Positions 2,367-24,933 of a stretch of DNA of 24,933 bases are shown here, piece after piece. Under the pieces are notes generated by a model. That model was not told where the DNA came from, searched no databases, and saw nothing but the letters and a program-made list of their open reading frames with translations. This stretch comes from a virus. Every line of letters starts with the position of its first letter. Positions within the stretch are counted from its first letter, which is position 1. A program made the translations under genes and the position numbers. Location: positions 1-24,933 of IMG/VR virus record IMGVR_UViG_3300009160_000163; one strand, 5' to 3'.

Positions 2367-2990
2367 ATGAACATTACCATAAAAATAACTCATGCCAACG
2401 GGACCTGTGTGGACGTCAGCATCCCTATGGGAGAACAGCCTGCCGCTGTTGCTCCAGAAGTACCTGCGCCAGAAGCACCAAAAGACCCGAAAGAAGTTAT
2501 CTCAACTGATTGCTTTGGGGAGCCTGTCACCAGGGAAGACCTTAAACCAACTGGGGAACGGTTTGCTTCAGCGCAGAATATGATTGATGGCAAACCAATT
2601 GAGAAAGACCTTGTTGGGGAAGAAGGTTTGGCTTTTTTGAAAGAGACAATCTTTGGAGAGCCGGCAGCACCTGCTGCGCCGGAGCCAGAACCTGAAGCAC
2701 CAGCAGTGGATGTGGGTGAGCAGTTCCGTTGTGTAGACGGCTTGTACACAATCACGCCCAGTCTGTACTCAGATTTCTGCGCTGCATTTGGCGCACCAAT
2801 GGTTGATCGAGAACTGGTCCTTGCTCGTCTCTGGCTGGAAACAAATCCAGCAAAACGGAAGACAAAGCGCGGCATCAGCCGATACCTTAATGCCTGGCTG
2901 TGCCGAGCGCAGGGAGAGAAGCGGCAGCCAATTAAGGGCCGGTCAGGCTCGCTGTTAGGCGCCGATAACACTTCCCAGGAGGGCTGGTGA
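2367..2990 (+). CDS. Putative phage replication protein (helicase-loader/initiator-like C-terminus)
   Basis: A 207-residue protein. The N-terminal half is low-complexity, rich in Pro, Ala and Glu (repeated APEAP-type stretches near residues 24-40 and 98-113), and probably disordered. The C-terminal part is compact: ITPSLYSDFCAAFG, RELVLARLWLETNPAKRKTK and GISRYLNAWLCRA. This reads like the C-terminal region often seen in phage replication initiators or helicase loaders (a short helical domain with W..NP.KRKT..G..R....WL). Its TGA overlaps the GTG of the DnaB-like gene (GTGA at 2987-2990), which supports a loader/partner role. No Walker A is present, so it is not a DnaC-type ATPase. The family call is from pattern memory. 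Confidence 0.5.
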   Translation: MNITIKITHANGTCVDVSIPMGEQPAAVAPEVPAPEAPKDPKEVISTDCFGEPVTREDLKPTGERFASAQNMIDGKPIEKDLVGEEGLAFLKETIFGEPAAPAAPEPEPEAPAVDVGEQFRCVDGLYTITPSLYSDFCAAFGAPMVDRELVLARLWLETNPAKRKTKRGISRYLNAWLCRAQGEKRQPIKGRSGSLLGADNTSQEGW

Positions 2991-3649
2991 AACTACCAAC
3001 TCCTACAGAAGCCGAGCGTGGAATAGCGTCCATTACGCTAAACCATCCCGAGCTGGTGCTTAACAGCATCAGCGATGCCGGATTCAACCCAACGTTTATT
3101 CACGACCGGCTGAGCCGGGATGTTGTGGAGGTAGTGCTAGACCAAGTGTCCAGAAGAGCTGTCTGCGATGTGCGAATCATCTTTGAGCGCGTGTGTGAAC
3201 GGTGTGAAGGCGTGCAGTTCCATCAGGTCAGTGATCTGTACACGCTGATGCCGGTTGCAGGTGCACTTAAGGAGCTAATGGGCATCGTTAAGTCGGCAAG
3301 TAAACGCAGGGCAATTGTGGCAGTGCTCGCGGAAGGAATGCACATGGCCGACTCTATTGACGTGACGACGACTGAGCTTGTCAATGGCTTAGCAGTTGGA
3401 ATTGAGCGCATTAGAGGAGAGATGACTCCTCCGGCTATTTTAGATACTAGGGCACTGATTATGGATGCCATTAACCGCTATCAAGAAGGTGACGATCAAA
3501 CACAGCGTATTCGCACTGGCTATGATAAGCTGGACAACTTAACTCCGATCCGATATGGCGACTTTCTCGTCATTGGTGGTCCAGAAAAAAGCGGTAAAAC
3601 CATGCTAGCCTTGAACATCTTAGCAAACATTCTCAATGAAATTAATTAA
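2987..3649 (+). CDS. DnaB-type replicative helicase, N-terminal fragment ending just after Walker A
   Basis: A 220-residue protein starting at GTG, with a strong AGGAGG 4-5 bases upstream. Residues 1 to about 110 match a DnaB N-terminal helical domain (EAERGIASITLNHPELVLN...), then a linker, then the start of the RecA-like domain (RTGYDKLDNL...GDFLVIGG) with Walker A GGPEKSGKT at 197-205. The frame stops 15 residues later (ILANILNEIN, TAA at 3647). A normal DnaB continues here with a strand carrying the catalytic Glu, Walker B and the arginine finger. Exactly that remainder is encoded at 6250-6831. No N-intein (Cys-initiated) sequence follows Walker A. The two halves sum to 413 residues, slightly shorter than a typical DnaB. 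On its own this half cannot hydrolyse ATP in the usual way. Confidence 0.85.
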   Translation: MKLPTPTEAERGIASITLNHPELVLNSISDAGFNPTFIHDRLSRDVVEVVLDQVSRRAVCDVRIIFERVCERCEGVQFHQVSDLYTLMPVAGALKELMGIVKSASKRRAIVAVLAEGMHMADSIDVTTTELVNGLAVGIERIRGEMTPPAILDTRALIMDAINRYQEGDDQTQRIRTGYDKLDNLTPIRYGDFLVIGGPEKSGKTMLALNILANILNEIN

Positions 3650-3947
3650 TCTGACTCCTCACATTATCAACATCTCAGGCCATGAATCCGTGGCGCCATC
3701 TGGATACATTGCCCGCGTCAATACGCAGCTATGCCAGATTGGTGACGCCAACGGAATACCGCTAATGTCCAGTAAAGTTCTTGGAGTTAGCAACATACCG
3801 GATGAAATTGCAGACACTCTGTTCATTGTTGCCGGCATGGTGCGAATGCATCTGCCGTTCAGAAAGGATTTGGCATCACCGTCAAAACTTATTCGCAACG
3901 AACATGGAGCTGTTGTGGCCTGTGGAGCACTGGAGGTGAACCCATGA
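3636..3947 (+). CDS. Conserved phage protein of unknown function (LTPH-type), 103 aa
   Basis: It starts inside the last codons of the helicase N-fragment (14-base overlap) and ends in an ATGA overlap with the dNMP kinase gene. The sequence begins MKLINLTPHIINI and continues with PSGYIARV, GIPLMSSKVLG, ADTLFIVAGMV, LPFRKDLASPSKLIRNEHG and VVACGALEVNP. I recognise this as a recurrent small phage family (INLTPH..., ...R.DL..P..L.RD..G.V.GC.G), often annotated hypothetical. No catalytic motif is obvious and no membrane segment is seen. It sits exactly at the helicase break, so it marks the left edge of whatever separates the helicase halves. Confidence 0.7.
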   Translation: MKLINLTPHIINISGHESVAPSGYIARVNTQLCQIGDANGIPLMSSKVLGVSNIPDEIADTLFIVAGMVRMHLPFRKDLASPSKLIRNEHGAVVACGALEVNP

Positions 3948-4405
3948 ATGACAACATTGGACTCATAGGGCTGGCCGGTTCTGGGAAAGATACAGCGGCC
4001 AAAGCCTTGATGAAGGCTGGCTACCATCGAGTGGCGTTTGCGGATGAACTCAAATCGTTGGCGCATTATTTCGGCTGGAACGGAGAAAAGGACGACGACG
4101 GCAGGTTGCTGTTGCAAGAGCTGGGCATGGCTTGCAGGCGCTATGATCAAAATTTCTGGATCAGACACGTCAGTAAGTACATAGACAAAACGACTGTCAA
4201 AATTGTCTTCACGGACGTGCGGTTTCAGAACGAAGCTGACTACGTTCGCAAGCGCGGCGGAATCATCGTCCGAATCGTGCGCCCAGGAATTATTTCAGGA
4301 AATCACGAATCAGAGCTAAACCAAAGCGAGATCGCTGCCGATATAGAGATAGTCAACGATGGTAGCATTCAAGACCTATATAACAAAATAACAGCAATAC
4401 TATGA
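3944..4405 (+). CDS. Deoxynucleoside monophosphate kinase
   Basis: A 153-residue P-loop kinase. The Walker A motif GLAGSGKDT is at residues 9-17, followed by the helix AAKALMKAGYHRVAFADELK typical of phage T4 gp1-like dNMP kinases (the FAD.LK segment). A later RHVSKYI...VKIVFTDVRFQNEAD stretch holds the acidic strand and the DVR/NEAD region of the family, and GGIIVRIVRPG precedes the end. The length is short but normal for minimal members. Expected reaction: ATP-dependent phosphorylation of dNMPs to dNDPs, raising precursor supply for replication. It is coupled to both neighbours by ATGA overlaps. It lies between the helicase halves. Confidence 0.8.
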   Translation: MNDNIGLIGLAGSGKDTAAKALMKAGYHRVAFADELKSLAHYFGWNGEKDDDGRLLLQELGMACRRYDQNFWIRHVSKYIDKTTVKIVFTDVRFQNEADYVRKRGGIIVRIVRPGIISGNHESELNQSEIAADIEIVNDGSIQDLYNKITAIL

Positions 4406-5166
4406 TCCACAACAACATACCAATGGCTGAGTACCGGCAAATGCCCGGGCTTAGCAAACATGAGTTGGACAACTTCGCGGTTGCTCCAGCCTACTATCAG
4501 CACCGCAAGAAGCAGGAGTGGAAGCCATCCCGCAGCATGGAGATGGGCACGCTCATCCACAGCCTTGTGCTGGAGGGCCGGTGCGACTACGCAGTTGGGC
4601 CTGATGTAGACAAGCGCACCAAGGCCGGAAAGGAAGATTGGGCGCTCTTTTGCGAAAACAACCTTGGAAAGATTGTCGTAAGCAAAGAGGAGGAAGCAAT
4701 CATTCGAGGCTGCCAAAGTGCGTGTGCGCCACTTATGGAGCACTGCGCCTTTACGGACGATGACATTGAAACCAGCATATTTTGGCAGCGTGACGGCATT
4801 CCCTGCAAGGGCCGGCCAGACATGATTGCACAGGTGCATGGGGAGCTAGCGTTGGTGGACCTTAAGACAACGACTGACATCAGAACTTTCGATAGCGCCT
4901 TCAATAGGTTCCGCTATGACGTGCAAGCGGCTTGGTATCAGTACGGCCTGAAGGAGGCAATGAAGCTAGATAAGCTGCCAGGCTTCTGGTTCCTTGTTGT
5001 GGATACAGAGGCGCCCCATCTTGCGCAGTTCATGCGGGCGTCTAGCGAGATCCTTGAGATTGCCAACGCGAAGATCGACGAGGAGCTGGCGTATTTTAAC
5101 CGCTGCCAGACCGCTCAGGAGTGGCCTGGGCTTCCGATGTTTAAACTCATTTTACCAAAATACTAA
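4402..5166 (+). CDS. PD-(D/E)XK exonuclease, RecE C-terminal/DUF3799-like
   Basis: A 254-residue protein. It opens with YRQMPGLSKHELDNFAVAPA, then MEMGTLIHSLVLEG (conserved His at residue 53), CKGRPDMI (catalytic Asp140), ALVDLKTT (Asp153-x-Lys155) and a YDVQAAWYQYGL helix with the Q..xYQ motif. This order defines the RecE/YqaJ-like exonuclease group used in phage recombination, which resects double-strand ends 5' to 3'. A single-strand annealing partner is not obvious in the window; the OB-fold protein at 1261 may act with it. Start ATG 4402 overlaps the kinase stop (ATGA); a second ATG at 4423 is possible. Confidence 0.8.
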   Translation: MIHNNIPMAEYRQMPGLSKHELDNFAVAPAYYQHRKKQEWKPSRSMEMGTLIHSLVLEGRCDYAVGPDVDKRTKAGKEDWALFCENNLGKIVVSKEEEAIIRGCQSACAPLMEHCAFTDDDIETSIFWQRDGIPCKGRPDMIAQVHGELALVDLKTTTDIRTFDSAFNRFRYDVQAAWYQYGLKEAMKLDKLPGFWFLVVDTEAPHLAQFMRASSEILEIANAKIDEELAYFNRCQTAQEWPGLPMFKLILPKY

Positions 5167-5167
5167 C

Positions 5168-5329
5168 ATGCTTAGCACCGGACGACCTGACGACGAGGAC
5201 CAAAACTTGGACGAAGGTCCAATATGCCCAACGTGTCTACACGAAATGGACTTAGACGGCGTAGATTTAGACGGCGCGGAATGGTATTGCGCTGAATGTG
5301 AGCCAAAAAAAGAGGAGGAGGGAAAATGA
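5168..5329 (+). CDS. Small acidic zinc-ribbon protein, 53 aa
   Basis: It starts one base after the exonuclease stop. The sequence contains two Cys-x2-Cys knuckles, CPTC and CAEC, separated by an acidic linker (HEMDLDGVDLDGAEWY), which is a minimal zinc ribbon; the protein is otherwise rich in Asp and Glu. It ends in ATGA shared with the next gene, and the GAGGAGGG before that shared ATG is a strong ribosome-binding site for the neighbour. Zinc binding is a fair prediction. The partner and function are unknown; small phage zinc ribbons often act as adaptors for host proteins. Confidence 0.65.
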   Translation: MLSTGRPDDEDQNLDEGPICPTCLHEMDLDGVDLDGAEWYCAECEPKKEEEGK

Positions 5330-5745
5330 ATACACAGGAAATAATCAAAAGACTTCACATCATTGTGGGAAATCGCACCATAGCTGGCATCCCAACTGAC
5401 GAGTTAACGGCGGCCACTGACAGGCTATACGAGTTGCAGTTTCTTGTAGAGCGCAAGGAGATGCACTCTAAAGAATGGGAGGATCAGGCTAGAGAAGCCA
5501 GAAAAGAACGCGACGAAGCCCGTACGTTAAACCAGGAGTTAATAACAAAATTAAATCACGCCCTTGCCGAACTGCATCATGCGCGTGCAAATACCCGCCC
5601 AGAACCTTCACGGCTGAAGATTGCGGCGCGGTTGATGGCGGCAAATCTGAGTAGGGAGACAGAGCAATGGGAAACTGTAGAAGAGGCAGTCTGGGCAGTT
5701 GAACAAGCAGACGCACTCATCGCAGCAGCAAAGGAGGCAAAATGA
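5326..5745 (+). CDS. Coiled-coil phage protein of unknown function, 139 aa
   Basis: It starts in the ATGA overlap with the zinc-ribbon gene, behind a strong GAGGAGGG SD. Residues about 35-90 form a long charged coiled coil (FLVERKEMHSKEWEDQAREA...ELITKLNHALAELHHA). The C-terminal 45 residues are helical (LKIAARLMAANLSRETEQW...VWAVEQADALIAAAKEAK). Similar short 'ATLMAALLS...A..AV..AD.LI' endings are common in small phage early proteins. No enzymatic motif is seen. It ends in an ATGA overlap with the next gene. Confidence 0.6.
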   Translation: MNTQEIIKRLHIIVGNRTIAGIPTDELTAATDRLYELQFLVERKEMHSKEWEDQAREARKERDEARTLNQELITKLNHALAELHHARANTRPEPSRLKIAARLMAANLSRETEQWETVEEAVWAVEQADALIAAAKEAK

Positions 5746-5993
5746 CCGACGCACAGATTAACGCGGCGATTGCCAAAGCTCTTAATGCTGATGAGCATTG
5801 GATGATCCAGAAAAACTACTGCAACGACCTGAACGCGATGGCACAGGCGGAGAAAATGCTGAACCCTGCACAGATTGAGGATTATGTAATCGAAGTGATG
5901 GGTTTTTCGCACGAGCCAATATTTGCTACAGCCCGCCAACGCGCAGAGGCGTTTTTGAGGACGCTGGGCAAGTGGGAGGAGGTGCAGGAGTGA
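5742..5993 (+). CDS. Phage ABA-sandwich-domain-like protein, 83 aa
   Basis: It starts behind AAAGGAGG with an ATGA overlap. The pattern INAAIAKAL...YCNDLNAMAQAEKML...ATARQRAEAFLRTLGKWEE matches, from memory, the small early-gene family with the 'Phage ABA sandwich' fold: a YCNDLNAM core, then a QRAEAFLRTLG.W end. Such proteins are frequent among small early genes of tailed phages, and their role is not known. It overlaps the next gene by GTGA. Confidence 0.65.
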   Translation: MTDAQINAAIAKALNADEHWMIQKNYCNDLNAMAQAEKMLNPAQIEDYVIEVMGFSHEPIFATARQRAEAFLRTLGKWEEVQE

Positions 5994-6253
5994 GTAAGCA
6001 ATACGTTGCATTGAGACGCACCAAGTTGCGTGACGGAGTTAAGCATCTCCCGCGTCCAAAGCTGACCCAGGAGGTAATCCTAATTGGAGACAAGGCTACT
6101 TGTCAGGAGGTCATTGAACAGGCAGCAGTGTTGCTACACAACCAGTCTACAGATGAGGTCGAGGTAGATTTGCTCGTAGTTGTTTACGACGGTCACAGGA
6201 CGCACAACTCAAAGGAGATTCGCAAAGACAACGGAAAGAGGTTCAAGAAATGA
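5990..6253 (+). CDS. Unknown small protein, 87 aa
   Basis: The frame runs further upstream to 5972, but the GTG at 5990, in a GTGA overlap and 7 bases after GGAGGAGG, is the best start. The protein begins MSKQYVALRRTKLRDGVK. It contains an alternating hydrophobic segment (EVEVDLLVVVYDGH) that looks like a beta strand and ends strongly basic (RKDNGKRFKK). No family is recognised. Its TGA overlaps the ATG of the helicase C-terminal fragment (ATGA 6250-6253), and the AAAGAGG in its last codons is the SD for that gene, so translation of the second helicase half is coupled to this gene. Confidence 0.55.
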   Translation: MSKQYVALRRTKLRDGVKHLPRPKLTQEVILIGDKATCQEVIEQAAVLLHNQSTDEVEVDLLVVVYDGHRTHNSKEIRKDNGKRFKK

Positions 6254-6831
6254 AAAAGGGAGTGCTTATCATCTCGCTAGAAATGCCGGCGAGCCAGATT
6301 ATTGACCGGCTGGTGGCGCGCTTAGGAAACGTGTCGTTGCGTGCCCTAGCTGAAGGGGTAAAGACGGAAAGCGACCTACAAGGGATGCAGCGCGCACTTA
6401 ACGTCTTACACACCTCTGAGCTAATTATCAGAGACGACCTGTACGACATTGGCAGCATCTGTTCTGTTGCCAGGGCAGTTGCCAAGTCAACAATGGGCCT
6501 GCGGGTGTTGTTTGTAGACTACATCCAATTAGTGCGTTGCGAGCTAGGCAAGGAAGCCACACGCGAGCGCGAGGTTGCAGAGGTGTCTAGGTCGCTGCGC
6601 TTGTTGAGCTTGGAGTTAGGATGTCTAGTCATTGGCATCACGCAGTTAAACGAACAGGGTAAGGCAAGGGAGTCTAGGGCCATCCAGCAGGACGCTACTT
6701 GTATCATGGCGATAGAAATAGATGGCGAAGAGAACCGAAAAGTGAGTATACCTTTTCAGCGCAATGGACCGTGCGGTGTCAGTACACACCTGCGGTTCAA
6801 CGGCAGAACAGCATCATTCCTAAACAACTAA
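6250..6831 (+). CDS. DnaB-type replicative helicase, C-terminal fragment (Walker B to arginine finger)
   Basis: A 193-residue protein that begins where the fragment at 2987-3649 stops. MKKGVLIISLEMP (catalytic Glu11 of the SLEM motif) follows naturally after the Walker A helix. Then come VLFVDYIQL (Walker B, Asp90), VIGITQLN (Gln132 sensor), ESRAIQQDATCIMAIE and FQRNGPCG (arginine finger Arg171 region), ending RFNGRTASFLNN. All ring-helicase motifs after Walker A are present and intact. No C-intein precedes the first residue. Start ATG is in an ATGA overlap, with AAAGAGG at about 6236-6242. The chain probably assembles non-covalently with the N-terminal fragment, which is inference. Decay into a pseudogene is unlikely because both pieces keep their motifs and clean starts and stops. 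Confidence 0.85.
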   Translation: MKKGVLIISLEMPASQIIDRLVARLGNVSLRALAEGVKTESDLQGMQRALNVLHTSELIIRDDLYDIGSICSVARAVAKSTMGLRVLFVDYIQLVRCELGKEATREREVAEVSRSLRLLSLELGCLVIGITQLNEQGKARESRAIQQDATCIMAIEIDGEENRKVSIPFQRNGPCGVSTHLRFNGRTASFLNN

Positions 6832-8108: not shown

Positions 8109-8353
8109 AAAAGCTACCACCTCAACCCGTCAACTGGGCTAATCCACAGTGGAGACACACTGCGTCTGGAATCCAGTGCCGCGCAGACTGGCGGAATGCC
8201 TGGGTGTACGACACAGATGCAGGCCTCATAATTGCGTACAGCCAGAAGCACGCAAACGACAAGGCAAAGTCTGTGCTCGAGGATGATGCGTTAGAACAGG
8301 CAATCAATGATGAGTACAGTTTGAAGCTGGATTTAGAAGACTGTACTCACTAG
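8105..8353 (+). CDS. Unknown phage protein, 82 aa, convergent with tfuA-like gene
   Basis: It starts in an ATGA overlap with the HTH gene. The sequence has a Trp-rich N-terminal part (PVNWANPQWRHTASG...WRNAWVYDTDAGLIIAYS) that looks like a small beta sheet, and an acidic helical tail (VLEDDALEQAINDEYSLKLDLED). No family is recognised. Its 3' 50 bases overlap the 3' end of the TfuA-like gene on the opposite strand, so the two transcription units converge with overlapping coding ends and no terminator hairpin between them. Confidence 0.55.
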   Translation: MKKLPPQPVNWANPQWRHTASGIQCRADWRNAWVYDTDAGLIIAYSQKHANDKAKSVLEDDALEQAINDEYSLKLDLEDCTH

Positions 8354-9302
8354 CCAAAGAAACTGCACTAATTGCGCCACCAGTGACTGCGAACCAGCTT
8401 CGTGCGCACTCCCTGGTGGCCAGTTTAACTGCAAACATGTTCCATTGCTGGTCTGTAAAATTGTTGGCAGTAAGCCAAGCTCGAGCAGCGGCCGGATCAG
8501 TAATGCCAAGGTTCTTCCACATCGAAGCAGATTGCCGCTGAATTTCCGCCGGCGTAGGCGTAATGCCAATGACTGACGCCAATTCAAAAAACAAGTGCAA
8601 GTCCACTGCTTCCGTTTGGTTGCTGGCAGTCTGCCACTTCCTAAGATCGCCAACAGGCAGATCGTTGTTTAGCAATATCTGCATATTGCTATTCATCGCG
8701 TTCTTGGCGGTACTTGCTGGCCGGCGATAGGTGGCAGCCAGATTGATGGCTTCTTGAGCGTCCAGTTGTTTTTGGTTGACGTAGCAGTCTTGTAGCTTTT
8801 TGCCAATCTTGGGCAGCAGACGCTTAATGGCAGGCCAGCTGCGTTCCATGTAGTAAATGGAGCGGCATTTCTCGATGACATCAGCGTCCAAATTATGAGA
8901 AAGCACGGTAGCACGAATGTTGACTAACGGCACAGTCAGCGGCTTGGAACCGTCAGCGTAATGACCGTGAGCCAAGGCAACCTCAGAATCATCTGTGCAG
9001 GTGCCATCAGCGTACCAGCCAGCAATGACGCCCACAGGCTCAGCTCCGTAAATAGCGCACTCCACAGCTCTAAGCGCACCAAGCGACCCAGCGCCTATGA
9101 CACGACAGCCATTACGAATAGCAAACAGGATCTCCTTGTGCCAGGGAGAGAGCGTGTGCGTGAAGTATCCGTCAATCAGGATAATGGTGGTAGCACCATC
9201 AAGGACGGCTTTGGCAATGTCTCCCTGTTGTGCAGGAGGACGAACATCTAAGCCAGTCAGATTCAAACCAACGCCGGTTGGGCCAATAAAGATGACAATC
9301 AT
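8304..9302 (-). CDS. TfuA-like protein (YcaO partner in thioamide formation)
   Basis: A 332-residue protein. The N-terminal TfuA core is clear: IDGYF (43-47), WHKEIL (54-59), VIGAGSLGALRAVE (68-81), YGAEPVG (85-91) and DDSEVALAHG (104-113). The last 200 residues are helical and less conserved (YRRPASTAKNAM, then LHLFFELASVIG), as in long TfuA proteins. In characterised systems TfuA works with YcaO to replace a backbone amide oxygen by sulfur (methanogen McrA glycine, thioviridamide-type peptides); TfuA is thought to handle the sulfur donor or help YcaO activate the amide. Its ATG overlaps the YcaO stop (ATGA 9299-9302), so the two are co-translated. This is one of the two antisense blocks in an otherwise plus-strand phage. 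Confidence 0.85.
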   Translation of the reverse strand: MIVIFIGPTGVGLNLTGLDVRPPAQQGDIAKAVLDGATTIILIDGYFTHTLSPWHKEILFAIRNGCRVIGAGSLGALRAVECAIYGAEPVGVIAGWYADGTCTDDSEVALAHGHYADGSKPLTVPLVNIRATVLSHNLDADVIEKCRSIYYMERSWPAIKRLLPKIGKKLQDCYVNQKQLDAQEAINLAATYRRPASTAKNAMNSNMQILLNNDLPVGDLRKWQTASNQTEAVDLHLFFELASVIGITPTPAEIQRQSASMWKNLGITDPAAARAWLTANNFTDQQWNMFAVKLATRECARSWFAVTGGAISAVSLASEYSLLNPASNCTHH

Positions 9303-10444
9303 AAACGGCGGCCTGCGGAACCGCTGGTGTGGTAGTAGCCAGCTAATGTGGGAATAGCCACTTTAACAACTGAACAGGGATATGGATGTTTAAACACTTT
9401 GATAAGCGGTTCTGGTATATTTGCGTTATTTAGCTTTATTAATATTGCTTTGATGTCAGTAAAAAAAGAATCAGTGCTTAAATCATCGTAATGCTTGCTT
9501 GATATAGTTTTGTTAAGTGACATTAGCTTATCCAATATATGTTTGTTGTCATTTGATTTGTTTTCTGAAAACTGTTTATGAAATATATCATCACGACTGC
9601 CGCTCATAAACACAGTGCGCGCTTGCACAGCTTCGCAAAGTGCCCGGCATTGAGCAACTTCTGGGTTTAAGTGCGAAGCATAACCTTTGTACATGCCGCT
9701 GTTTTGCTCTTTGTCGTAAAGATAACAAACATAAGTAGGTACACCAATATCAAGCGTGCAATCAATTATGATTGGAATGATGTCATTAGTCTTTAAGCGG
9801 TCAACTAAAGCACCGAGCGTATGGTCTTGAATTGTATTTAAATCAACAACAATTTCATCAGTATTGCTTAAGAACGCATTTGATATTTGATCTCGCTCAA
9901 TGACTTCATATAAACCACCGGCAACAGCTTCTTCTAAAGTATTTCCAGCAGACAAACCATTTGTGCTGGAAGAGAAAGCAAATTTGAAGAATGGAAATCC
10001 AAATTGGTTGAGCAATGTTTTAACGCACGCTTCCGGGACCCAGCGCGCTTGGTTGCTGACAATGCCATACATGGCGGTCCAGTCAATTGGGTTGTTGGGA
10101 TTGTAGTGGGCGCCGCGAATAAGCTGAAAACGAGTCTCAGCGTCTGGCACATCAATGCCTCGAGCAGTTACGACGTCCAACACAGCAGTCTCTCCAACGT
10201 GACGCTCAAAGCCTTCCATCATCGCGCTGCACATAGCAGCTTCAGCAGTGGCTCCCTTGCCAGAGTCTACACAAAGCGAAATAGCATCAGGACGAACACA
10301 CTGAGCAACAGGGATGCCAGAGCGGTCCAGACCGGTAATCTCAGAGACGCGGGTGATGCCAGCCTGTGGCCACCAAGGCTTCATCCGGGCAATAGTGTCA
10401 GCAGGCGTGCAAGCTCGCTGAGCACCTTCTAATTTCAATTTCAT
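9299..10444 (-). CDS. YcaO-domain ATP-dependent cyclodehydratase/thioamidation enzyme
   Basis: A 381-residue protein with full YcaO hallmarks. GITRVSEITGLDRSGIPVA (29-47) is followed by the ATP/Mg-binding segment SLCVDSGKG (56-64) with downstream CSAMMEGFERHVGE (Glu77, Glu80, Arg81). TNGLSAGNTLEEA (161-173) is followed by GLYEVIERD (177-185), and a C-terminal VVKVAIPTLAGYY. YcaO enzymes phosphorylate an amide backbone and let a Cys/Ser side chain or sulfide attack it; with TfuA the usual outcome is a thioamide. All nucleotide-binding residues are kept, so it should be active. The C-terminal half is markedly A+T rich compared with the N-terminal half. The start codon is 1 base from the ATG of the divergent gene at 10446. 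No strong SD is visible. Confidence 0.88.
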   Translation of the reverse strand: MKLKLEGAQRACTPADTIARMKPWWPQAGITRVSEITGLDRSGIPVAQCVRPDAISLCVDSGKGATAEAAMCSAMMEGFERHVGETAVLDVVTARGIDVPDAETRFQLIRGAHYNPNNPIDWTAMYGIVSNQARWVPEACVKTLLNQFGFPFFKFAFSSSTNGLSAGNTLEEAVAGGLYEVIERDQISNAFLSNTDEIVVDLNTIQDHTLGALVDRLKTNDIIPIIIDCTLDIGVPTYVCYLYDKEQNSGMYKGYASHLNPEVAQCRALCEAVQARTVFMSGSRDDIFHKQFSENKSNDNKHILDKLMSLNKTISSKHYDDLSTDSFFTDIKAILIKLNNANIPEPLIKVFKHPYPCSVVKVAIPTLAGYYHTSGSAGRRL

Positions 10445-10445
10445 T

Positions 10446-10682
10446 ATGTTAAAAACAATATACCAAGACAGTACTTACACGGCACAAGTATCACCTGATA
10501 CCTCCTGCGTTGTCCACCGAGTTGCTGAGTTGCCAAATGGTCAGCGGCTTACCACTCATGTGGGAGAGAAGCTGCCAAGTCAAGATTGGCGCGAGGTCAA
10601 GTTGATGGGCTGTCCAGACGAGATCCGTGTGGAGATAGTGAAAGCCTGGAATCAAAATCAAATTTGCCAAATCAAATTATGA
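10446..10682 (+). CDS. Unknown 78-aa protein divergent from the YcaO gene; candidate partner or substrate
   Basis: It starts one base from the YcaO start on the opposite strand (CATTATG, 10442-10448). The protein has a beta-rich look (YTAQVSPDTSCVVHRVAEL, RLTTHVGEKLPSQDW) and a helical end (PDEIRVEIVKAWNQNQ), with three Cys residues. The family is not recognised. The start has no SD; the preceding sequence is A/T rich. It ends in an ATGA overlap with an 18-codon ORF. Its close pairing with YcaO-TfuA makes it a possible regulator, leader-binding partner or modification substrate, which is inference from position only. Confidence 0.5.
   Translation: MLKTIYQDSTYTAQVSPDTSCVVHRVAELPNGQRLTTHVGEKLPSQDWREVKLMGCPDEIRVEIVKAWNQNQICQIKL
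10488..10501. promoter_or_regulatory. 14-bp palindrome GTATCACCTGATAC, possible operator of the YcaO-TfuA cassette
   Basis: Perfect 6-bp arms (GTATCA / TGATAC) surround a CC spacer, 44-57 bases upstream of the YcaO start on the minus strand and within the 78-codon plus-strand gene. On the minus strand it is followed by TTGTGC and, 19 bases later, TATATT, a weak -35/-10 pair that would start transcription just before the YcaO ATG. The half site resembles phage repressor operators (TATCACC-type). That it lies within a coding frame weakens the claim. Confidence 0.35.
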
Positions 10683-11378: not shown

Positions 11379-12017
11379 TTAGTGTAGAAGATAAGCAACG
11401 TTGCTTTCGCTTTTCCAACAAGCGCGACAGTCGCGACATTGATTACCCTGGGTCGGAGCTGGGCATGTTGCTTGCGCCTTGTCGCTTGTCACGGTAGACG
11501 TTGTTACTCCTAAGCGCGAAGCAAGCGCAAGAGGAGCGGGCCCGTTCACTAGGTAGGCTGAGAGGCGCACGGTAAGGTTACCAGGGAAGGCGCCTACCGT
11601 GTCTGTGTAGCGTTGAATAAGAGCGTATTCCTTAGTCGGAAGCCAGAAGCGGATCTCAGGAAGCGCGATCGCGATTTGCACTATCTTTAACAGCCCTTTC
11701 CAGCTGGGGACGTCCCCAGAGTCAAACCAACGGAAAAAGCCGGACTTCTCTTCCTTCCTAATTTTGGAGATCATTTCAGGGACGAAGGAAGCCGAATTGA
11801 AAGCAGACAACCTAGCTTCTAAGGCTCGCTGTACGTTGTTGAATCGGTAGTTTCCTCCGTCCGCGTAGCACTCTGCGCAGATTGTGCCTGGCCGTTTGGC
11901 AAGCTTGCTGCCGACGGTACAGACAGACAGAGGAAGGGAGAAGGACCGGCAGGGCATTTTGCTAGGTGCCGAAAGGGTGAAAGGGACAGAGGGTAGAATT
12001 TCAGTAGGGAAGCGCAT
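11379..12017 (-). CDS. GP88-family phage protein with Cys clusters
   Basis: A 212-residue protein with the pattern I associate with phage 'gene product 88' (GP88) proteins: KMPCRSFSLPLSVC, TICAECYADGGNYRF (Cys47, Cys50), FRWFDSGDVPSWKGLLKI and RFWLPTKEYAL. It also has a C-terminal Cys cluster (C185, then C194-x2-C197-x2-C200), suggesting metal or Fe-S binding. The biochemical function is not established to my knowledge. The CxxCYA and W.DSGD features resemble those of DUF5131/Gp37-Gp68 phage proteins with radical-SAM-like folds; that link is tentative. The start is supported by AAGGA about 8 bases upstream on the minus strand. It is the largest gene of the antisense operon. Confidence 0.7.
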   Translation of the reverse strand: MRFPTEILPSVPFTLSAPSKMPCRSFSLPLSVCTVGSKLAKRPGTICAECYADGGNYRFNNVQRALEARLSAFNSASFVPEMISKIRKEEKSGFFRWFDSGDVPSWKGLLKIVQIAIALPEIRFWLPTKEYALIQRYTDTVGAFPGNLTVRLSAYLVNGPAPLALASRLGVTTSTVTSDKAQATCPAPTQGNQCRDCRACWKSESNVAYLLH

Positions 12018-22904: not shown

Positions 22905-24933
22905 ATGGGCGACAAAATCTCTGCACTTCCAGCGGCAACCAGTTTAGACGGAACGGAAATCATTCCAATCGTTCAAGCTGGTGCTACCAAAAAGGTCACC
23001 GGCCTTATCCTTCGCAATCCTGCCGGCGTTGCAGGGGGCGACCTTACGGGGACCTATCCTAATCCGACGCTAGCATCTGTGACAACTGCGCAGGTTGCTG
23101 TTGGAACTGGACTGGCTATCCCAGTACTTACGGTTGACGCCAAAGGTAGGGTAACTGCGTTAACCACAACGCAGAATCCTGCACTTACAACCAACCAGAT
23201 TGCCGGCCTTTCTTCTGTCGCACCTTCTGCGCTTGCCGTTACAGCTGCCGTTGGAACGTCTACCTCTGCCGCCAGGGCTGACCATCAGCACGTTTATCCC
23301 ACTGCTGCCCAGGTAGGTGCTCTTGGGGCTACTGCTACGGCTGGCGGAGACTTGACAGGAAGCTATCCAAACCCAAATTTAGCTGCAATTACTACTGCGC
23401 AAACTGGAATCGGCAGCGGATTAGTTATTCCCGTTCTTACGGTTGACGCCAAAGGCCGCGTTACAAACCTAACAACTGCCGCTTGCCCTGCTCTTACGAC
23501 TACGCAGATTGCGGGACTTTCTTCGACGGCGCCGGCAGCTTTGGCTTCTGTTGCGGCAGTTGGAACATCTACGTTTGCGTCTCGTTCAGATCACCAGCAT
23601 GTGTTTCCAACAGCGGCACAAGTTGGCGCATTAGGAGCTACAGCAACTGCCGGAGGAGATCTGACGGGAAGCTATCCAAACCCAACGTTTGCTGCAATTA
23701 CGACAGCACAAAGCAACATTGGAAGTTCAACTCAGATTCCTGTGTTGAGCATTGACGCCAAAGGCAGGGTCACTGGACTTTCTTCTGTTGCTGGAGCTTT
23801 TGCAACATCTTCAATCAGTTCTCTTACCGGAGACGTTATTGCTAGTGGCCCTGGGTCAGCATCTGCTGCGCTGGCAGCAATCACGACAGCGCAAAGCAAT
23901 ATTGGAAGTAGCACTTCTGTGCCTGTGCTGAGCATTGATGAAAAAGGCCGCATTACATCACTTTCTAGCACTCCAATTAGTGGAACTGCTGGTGGAACTG
24001 TAACAAGCGTGACTGCTGGAAGTGGATTGTCTGGCGGCACAATTACAGGCGCCGGCACAATTGCAATTAGCGACGTAACAACCGCTCAAAGCGCGATTGG
24101 AAGCTCGACTCAGATTCCTGTCATTACGGTTAACGCTAAAGGTCAAATCACTGCTCTTACCACAGCAGCTGCTGCCGGTGGAGTTGCGCTTTCCACATCC
24201 GAACCTGCTGCCCTTGCGGCTGTTGCTGCTGTTGGAATTGGCGCAACTGCTGCTAGAGCAGATCACCAACATATTTACCCTACTGCTGCTCAGGTTGGTG
24301 CGCTCGGAGCTACAGCTGCTGCCGGCGGTGATTTGACTGGAAACTATCCAAATCCAACTCTGGCTGCAATTACTACGGCCCAGTCAATTGTTGGATCGAG
24401 TACAGTAATTCCGATTTTAAGCATCGATGCCAAAGGCCGTGTGACTGCGCTGTCGTCAACCACTGCTGCAAGCGGAGTTACGCTTGCAACTACGGCCCCG
24501 CCAAATATTGCGTCCGTATCAATTGTTGGTACAAGCGCATTTGCCGCCAGGGCTGACCACACCCACGGAGTGACAGGGGGTATTGACATTTTGCTTGTTG
24601 CAGGTGGCGGAGCGGGCGGCCCCGGAACAACTAGTGGGACTTATGGTGGAGGGGGCGGAGCGGGAGGGTATATTGCCAGCAATTTTTCTGCTAGCGCAGG
24701 CACTACTTATCCTGTTGTGATCGGCGCAGGTGGAACCAGTGCGGCAGTCGATGCAATTCCCACCGATGGCACAAACTCAACGGGGTTGAGTATTACTGCC
24801 CTTGCTGGAGGTTCTGGGTATCCTGGCGCTGCGGGGCTCTCTGGAGGATCGGGCGCAGGTGGCGCGCGCTCTATTGCTGGAAGCGGAAGTTTTGCGGGAG
24901 GAACTGGAACTGTTGGCCAAGGGAAAAATGGCG
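22905..24933 (+). CDS. Repetitive tail fibre/adhesin, N-terminal 676 aa (runs off the window)
   Basis: The ATG is 1 base after the upstream stop, and the frame is open to the end of the window. The start (MGDKISALPAATSLDGTEIIPIV) is typical of phage tail-fibre N-termini. The shaft consists of repeats with GGDLTGSYPNPTLAAITTAQ at nucleotides about 23040, 23349, 23658 and 24330 (the first three exactly 309 bases, 103 residues, apart), each followed by IPVLTVDAKGRVTAL and a RADHQHVYPTAAQVGALG segment. The last part (from about 24590) is glycine-rich (LLVAGGGAGG...GGGGGAGGY), as in fibre tips of the polyglycine type. Likely host-receptor contact; the C-terminus is outside the window. Confidence 0.85.
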   Translation, partial: MGDKISALPAATSLDGTEIIPIVQAGATKKVTGLILRNPAGVAGGDLTGTYPNPTLASVTTAQVAVGTGLAIPVLTVDAKGRVTALTTTQNPALTTNQIAGLSSVAPSALAVTAAVGTSTSAARADHQHVYPTAAQVGALGATATAGGDLTGSYPNPNLAAITTAQTGIGSGLVIPVLTVDAKGRVTNLTTAACPALTTTQIAGLSSTAPAALASVAAVGTSTFASRSDHQHVFPTAAQVGALGATATAGGDLTGSYPNPTFAAITTAQSNIGSSTQIPVLSIDAKGRVTGLSSVAGAFATSSISSLTGDVIASGPGSASAALAAITTAQSNIGSSTSVPVLSIDEKGRITSLSSTPISGTAGGTVTSVTAGSGLSGGTITGAGTIAISDVTTAQSAIGSSTQIPVITVNAKGQITALTTAAAAGGVALSTSEPAALAAVAAVGIGATAARADHQHIYPTAAQVGALGATAAAGGDLTGNYPNPTLAAITTAQSIVGSSTVIPILSIDAKGRVTALSSTTAASGVTLATTAPPNIASVSIVGTSAFAARADHTHGVTGGIDILLVAGGGAGGPGTTSGTYGGGGGAGGYIASNFSASAGTTYPVVIGAGGTSAAVDAIPTDGTNSTGLSITALAGGSGYPGAAGLSGGSGAGGARSIAGSGSFAGGTGTVGQGKNG

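Follow-up and report, generated by a model that had tools for sequence, protein, structure and literature searches.

Two genes for one DnaB: a phage clade whose predicted replicative helicase is divided within the ATPase core

Fractured genes for the T4-type replicative helicase gp41, and for similar proteins, are known from phages, their products being joined by split inteins. Ring helicases are thought to need tight coupling of Walker A and the catalytic strand within one subunit. Enzymes encoded in pieces were also described in T4-type phages, namely the split nrdA of Aeh1, the topoisomerase genes 39/60 of T4 and genes 43A/43B of Aeromonas phages 25 and 44RR; according to the review that covers these cases (PMC2988022), Aeh1 NrdA retains full function despite its division, and polymerase activity co-purifies with the two-piece gp43 of phage 25. 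Here we analyse a virus record of 24,933 bases (IMGVR_UViG_3300009160_000163; the whole record is the window), in which two separate open reading frames (ORFs), judged from their translations, together correspond to one DnaB helicase, divided within the ATPase core. The pair and its motifs are located as follows:

2987..3649 (+), DnaB N-piece, 220 amino acids (aa): N-terminal domain (primase/loader-binding type), linker helix, first RecA strand, Walker A and the helix after it
3578..3601 (+), Walker A motif GPEKSGKT, N-piece residues 198-205; GG..KSGKT is invariant in 18 representatives
6250..6831 (+), DnaB C-piece, 193 aa: remainder of the RecA-type ATPase core
6268..6285 (+), IISLEM, first C-piece strand with the catalytic glutamate E11, invariant
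6505..6522 (+), Walker B motif VLFVDY, with D90 of the C-piece, invariant
6643..6645 (+), sensor glutamine Q132 (ITQLN) of the C-piece, invariant
6760..6762 (+), arginine-finger position R171 (QRNGPCG) of the C-piece, invariant; it aligns to QRNGPIG of bacterial DnaB

The N-piece starts with GTG, preceded by AGGAGG, and, as its translation confirms, stops 15 residues past Walker A; the C-piece opens with MKKGVLIISLEM, 2600 nucleotides (nt) from the stop of the N-piece to its own start, and Shine-Dalgarno-like sites precede both halves in the window. Added together, the two products have 413 aa. In the DnaB equivalog model TIGR00665 (435 positions), the N-piece covers positions 4-221 and the C-piece 224-432, leaving a gap of 2 positions; in the solved DnaB 2r6a they correspond to residues 11-230 and 233-435, and in Pfam DnaB_C (PF03796, 255 positions) to 2-46 and 45-254. 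Matches to TIGR00665 and TIGR03600 span N-piece residues 5-217, so that the DnaB N-terminal domain and linker are present. Aligned to intact DnaBs, the joint reads ...KSGKTMLALNIIANLINE / MNKGILVISLEM..., against ...GKTTFAMNLVENAAVRNDKPVLVFSLEM... of P1 Ban. Since the pieces tile the DnaB models in this way, the break maps to the loop that joins the Walker A helix to the catalytic-glutamate strand, with nothing missing. Walker A, the catalytic glutamate, Walker B, the sensor glutamine and the arginine finger are all kept, but distributed over two proteins, and in place of the single polypeptide that is a trait of the DnaB family there are two ORFs 2.6 kb apart, in the window and likewise in 90 related contigs. 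The first-pass annotation had read the locus as a DnaB in two genes with other genes between them, the N-piece ending 15 residues after Walker A, the C-piece beginning at the next strand and the joined 413 residues forming a continuous DnaB with every motif, and all of this is borne out here.

Relatives were gathered by pattern-plus-tblastn scans, which yielded more than 100 contigs, and all members of the clade are metagenomic. The scans relied on short peptide patterns, and distant split or fused forms may escape them; the patterns within either half (VLFVDYIQ, GDF[LV]V[IV]GG and KSGKTM) would also catch fused forms. Every contig holding both genes (90/90) carries the same break, with both halves on one strand and N before C, and an interval of 1.27-3.8 kb between them. 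Even deep branches, in which the N-pieces are merely 37-47% identical, share the break, and no fused close relative was found in the viral and genome scans, nor any fused form above 37% identity. Moreover, the 20 relatives of 37-44 kb (20/20) have exactly the two halves, no further DnaB_C match and no intact DnaB. One of them, G018 (39.4 kb), carries a 123-bp direct terminal repeat and is therefore apparently a complete assembly; its gene list shows no further recognisable helicase. One relative contig was binned with a Pedosphaera (Verrucomicrobiota) genome, a weak hint at the host.

These observations bear directly on whether the locus is a decayed pseudogene or an assembly error, an explanation for which we see nothing beyond the split itself and which we regard as hardly credible: the same structure recurs in 90 contigs from many metagenomes, without stop codons, and the ratio of nonsynonymous to synonymous substitutions (dN/dS) is 0.04-0.05, with medians of 0.054 for the N-piece and 0.040 for the C-piece among 58 distinct members. 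A second intact DnaB, signs of misassembly, or frameshifts and stops accumulating in relatives had been named beforehand as observations that would overturn the initial interpretation, and none was found, the search for a second DnaB covering the 20 near-complete relatives; a comparison of relatives for fused, split or intermediate forms had also been proposed, and it shows the break fixed in the whole clade.

A tblastn search of both pieces against 50,697 phage records returned weak matches only, and every DnaB record examined among cultured phages was intact. The PHROGs family phrog_23150 (217 positions, no assigned function), which matches the N-piece and stops at the same place in the DnaB sequence, was considered as a second N-piece family; the records matching it that we examined hold intact DnaBs. 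Its members could belong to another split DnaB lineage, and none was identified.

In a maximum-likelihood tree of the joined split proteins and intact DnaBs, the split ones fall on one side of one branch (100/100), and the place of this clade among the intact DnaBs, whose identity to the split proteins is at most 37%, is uncertain owing to long branches. The simplest history suggested by these sequences is a single fission before the clade diversified, and, since DnaB is intact in bacteria and in other phages, the direction would be fission and not the persistence of separate ancestral halves. A homing endonuclease may have been at the origin of the split, a possibility kept because an HNH endonuclease gene lies between the halves in one contig (L048; 1/90); the constant separators are nonetheless ordinary replication and recombination genes. 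The earlier statement that no homing endonuclease is present holds for the window, where Pfam and PHROGs scans found none, and fails for the L048 contig.

Walker A, the catalytic glutamate, the Walker B aspartate, the sensor glutamine and the arginine finger are invariant in the representatives compared (18-19), and the distances of the two halves correlate (r = 0.88). By these comparisons the split is old, fixed in the clade and maintained under selection, so that the ring motor probably consists of two kinds of chain. It was considered whether the pieces instead form no joint helicase and do separate jobs, the N-piece for instance capturing the host primase or poisoning the host DnaB, with the phage using the host helicase. 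The genes do lie apart, and the N-piece evolves faster than the C-piece (mean distance 0.79 vs 0.36), as would a host-facing domain. However, the N-piece retains an invariant P-loop that has no use in the absence of the C-piece, just as the catalytic glutamate, Walker B and the arginine finger retained in the C-piece have none without the P-loop; both halves are present, in addition, in all of the near-complete genomes. Conservation of both sets of motifs is best explained by a joint ATPase, and we consider separate functions improbable.

How the halves are united was assessed from their broken ends and surroundings. A split intron of group I or group II could splice the two messages together in trans, so that a single normal DnaB chain is translated, and the break is indeed clean at the protein level, the joined frames reading as one DnaB. 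Nevertheless, no Rfam intron match was found near the break in the window (E up to 10) or in seven relatives, and the flanks are unlike one another, falling into 19 clusters just downstream of the N-piece and 23 just upstream of the C-piece (86 members). The N-piece ends inside or beside the start of the first gene of the interval, and each half has a start codon and a stop codon of its own, with additional residues at the broken ends that are specific to lineages and would need to be removed by splicing. On these grounds joining at the RNA level is disfavoured, and we hold it to be very unlikely. The first-pass annotation, which had seen no group I intron-like sequence, had left two chains and two RNAs joined in trans side by side; the former is favoured here, the latter is not.

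Protein ligation through a split intein, for which metagenomic gp41-type phage helicases are a precedent, is weaker still. The two halves of an intein require about 100 and 35 residues, among them conserved Cys/Ser and Asn. The spare residues at the broken ends number 0-26 (N-piece) and 0-19 (C-piece) and are unlike between lineages, as in L070-L074, where a 26-residue non-homologous tail (NLSTSPHIVSTSTEKPLSQQ...) follows the broken end of the N-piece, or in L248-L251, where an open head of 13-19 aa precedes the C-piece. These ends are too short for intein halves, and a split intein is thus refuted by length alone; Pfam scans show nothing intein-like, in agreement with the earlier reading, and we give this explanation practically no credence. 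Own termini carrying lineage-specific, non-homologous residues are what is expected of free termini, and with ligation and intron joining both disfavoured, non-covalent fold complementation remains.

We therefore favour an ancient gene fission whose products would assemble non-covalently into a DnaB ring, and estimate the probability of this reading, in which the assembly is inferred from the genes, at roughly 85%. A single cut would have divided an ancestral phage dnaB, in the loop that leads from the Walker A helix to the following strand, its halves becoming separate genes about 1.3-3.8 kb apart in a same-strand block of replication and recombination genes. The two proteins would be made separately, from their own start and stop codons, and would pair non-covalently by fold complementation, the N-piece contributing the first RecA strand, the P-loop and the following helix to the open sheet of the C-piece. 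Each ATPase core would then consist of two chains and the ring of about six N and six C chains, and the assembled ring would serve as the phage's DnaB helicase.

In additional strand, catalytic E (ASCE) folds, the P-loop strand sits inside the sheet, so that neither half alone could form a complete ATPase core. AlphaFold2 predicts the helical N-terminal domain of the N-piece confidently (residues 1-140, predicted local distance difference test, pLDDT, about 80-92), with a linker helix at 154-166 and low values in the P-loop region; for the C-piece, residues 1-90 are confident and about 110-130 moderate. In Foldseek searches both models match DnaB, the N-piece model matching DnaB chains and the isolated DnaB N-terminal domain 2r5u, with a template modelling (TM) score (target) of about 0.8. 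Against a two-chain helicase, the models of single halves are not confident for the split core, any pair of genes from the same genome should show correlated distances, and many relatives have no recognisable Shine-Dalgarno site before either half. The low confidence in the core fits mutual dependence of the halves but may stem from shallow alignments, and it is given little weight.

It is tempting to regard the split as a device and not as a tolerated relic, separate synthesis letting the phage control the time and place of ring formation; C-pieces might, for example, be added to N-pieces that primase has already bound or that already sit at the origin. We consider this a speculative and rather doubtful proposal. 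If true, the helicase would load on DNA by assembly of its ATPase sites and not by a ring-opening loader.

The 2.6-kb interval holds seven ORFs, mostly overlapping their neighbours by 4-14 nt, and Pfam and PHROGs matches confirm that they include, as described earlier, a deoxynucleoside monophosphate kinase and a RecE-like exonuclease:

3636..3947 (+), g1, 103 aa, phrog_21731/30542 (no assigned function); overlaps the end of the N-piece by 14 nt; in the interval in 90/90 contigs
3944..4405 (+), deoxynucleoside monophosphate kinase (PF21448, 3e-14; phrog_139, 3e-44); in the interval in 26/90 contigs only
4402..5166 (+), RecE/exonuclease VIII-like PD-(D/E)XK nuclease (PF12684, 6e-21; phrog_412, 4e-53); in the interval in 90/90 contigs
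5168..5329 (+), g4, 53 aa, ORF with CxxC...CxxC, possible zinc ribbon (weak PF10058)
5326..5745 (+), g5, 139 aa, ORF without family match in Pfam and PHROGs
5742..5993 (+), g6, 83 aa, ORF whose position varies among relatives
5990..6253 (+), g7, 87 aa, GTG start; ATGA overlap with the C-piece start; in the interval in 89/90 contigs

The rest of the interval is variable cargo in relatives: a cytosine methylase, a Mom DNA-modification protein, ThyX and the HNH_3 endonuclease (cargo sites at L048:6382-6804, L048:6809-8032, L031:7267-8004 and L230:2827-3636). Upstream of the N-piece, the window encodes a RusA-like resolvase and a possible OB-fold single-stranded DNA-binding protein (weak match). 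Neither the scanned proteins of the window nor those of G018 include a recognisable polymerase, primase or second helicase, and the phage therefore probably uses host primase and polymerase together with its own DnaB.

Elsewhere in the window, which is mostly plus-strand, a TfuA gene (8304-9302, minus strand; PF07812, 4e-28) overlaps a YcaO gene (9299-10444, minus strand; PF02624, 1.5e-56), a thioamidation-type pair in a phage, next to a divergent 78-aa ORF at 10446-10682; this region has no match among the ORFs of G018, a close relative. A GP88-like protein is encoded at 11379-12017 (minus strand; PF17338, 7e-25), with a similar-looking ORF, by eye, at 5333-6046 of G018, and a long tail-fibre-like ORF with repeated ITTAQ...IPVLTVDAKGRVT units (22905-24932, plus strand) is open at the window end. 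Among the relatives, Rfam matches include an abiF RNA above the gathering score (L031:14917-14953, plus strand) and a transfer RNA gene (L069:3706-3777, plus strand).

A clade with Walker A and the catalytic strand on two chains would be a natural test of the chain continuity that a DnaB motor needs, and an example of ATPase sites that could be put together when required; the break also offers a natural split site for controllable helicases. For annotation pipelines it is a warning, as each half alone resembles a truncated or unknown gene.

The intact phage DnaBs of P1 (Ban), Pseudomonas phage HU1 (465 aa) and Phage C75C1 (441 aa) are homologous to the split pair from end to end, as one chain, at no more than 37% identity; among named phages, C75C1 has the closest terminase as well (30%), and a close capsid (27%). 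The fractured gp41 genes resemble this locus in that two genes far apart encode a replicative phage helicase, of the same superfamily as DnaB, and differ from it in their break point and in the intein halves, which are absent here, so that no ligation would take place. Searches of the literature for a phage DnaB that is split or interrupted found nothing relevant, with thin subscription coverage that makes this weak evidence, and we found no report of genes in pieces for this enzyme or at this cut position. With the T4-type genes in pieces the locus shares the derivation of one enzyme from two separate genes without intein or intron, the gene being contiguous in homologues and present as two intact ORFs in this clade. 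The products of the T4-type pieces are synthesised separately and combine into a functional enzyme, as shown for Aeh1 NrdA and phage 25 gp43, and the DnaB halves would do likewise. T4-type pieces are separated by a homing endonuclease or by untranslated sequence, while replication and recombination genes are constant here and an HNH gene occurs in a single contig; those cases affect single phages or small groups, in contrast to a whole diverse clade in which the split is fixed. Furthermore, unlike them, the enzyme is a hexameric-type helicase, cut inside its ATPase core between Walker A and the catalytic glutamate. The split dnaB thus extends genes in pieces to a new enzyme class, with a ring ATPase cut internally, constant separators that are not mobile elements and a clade-wide distribution.
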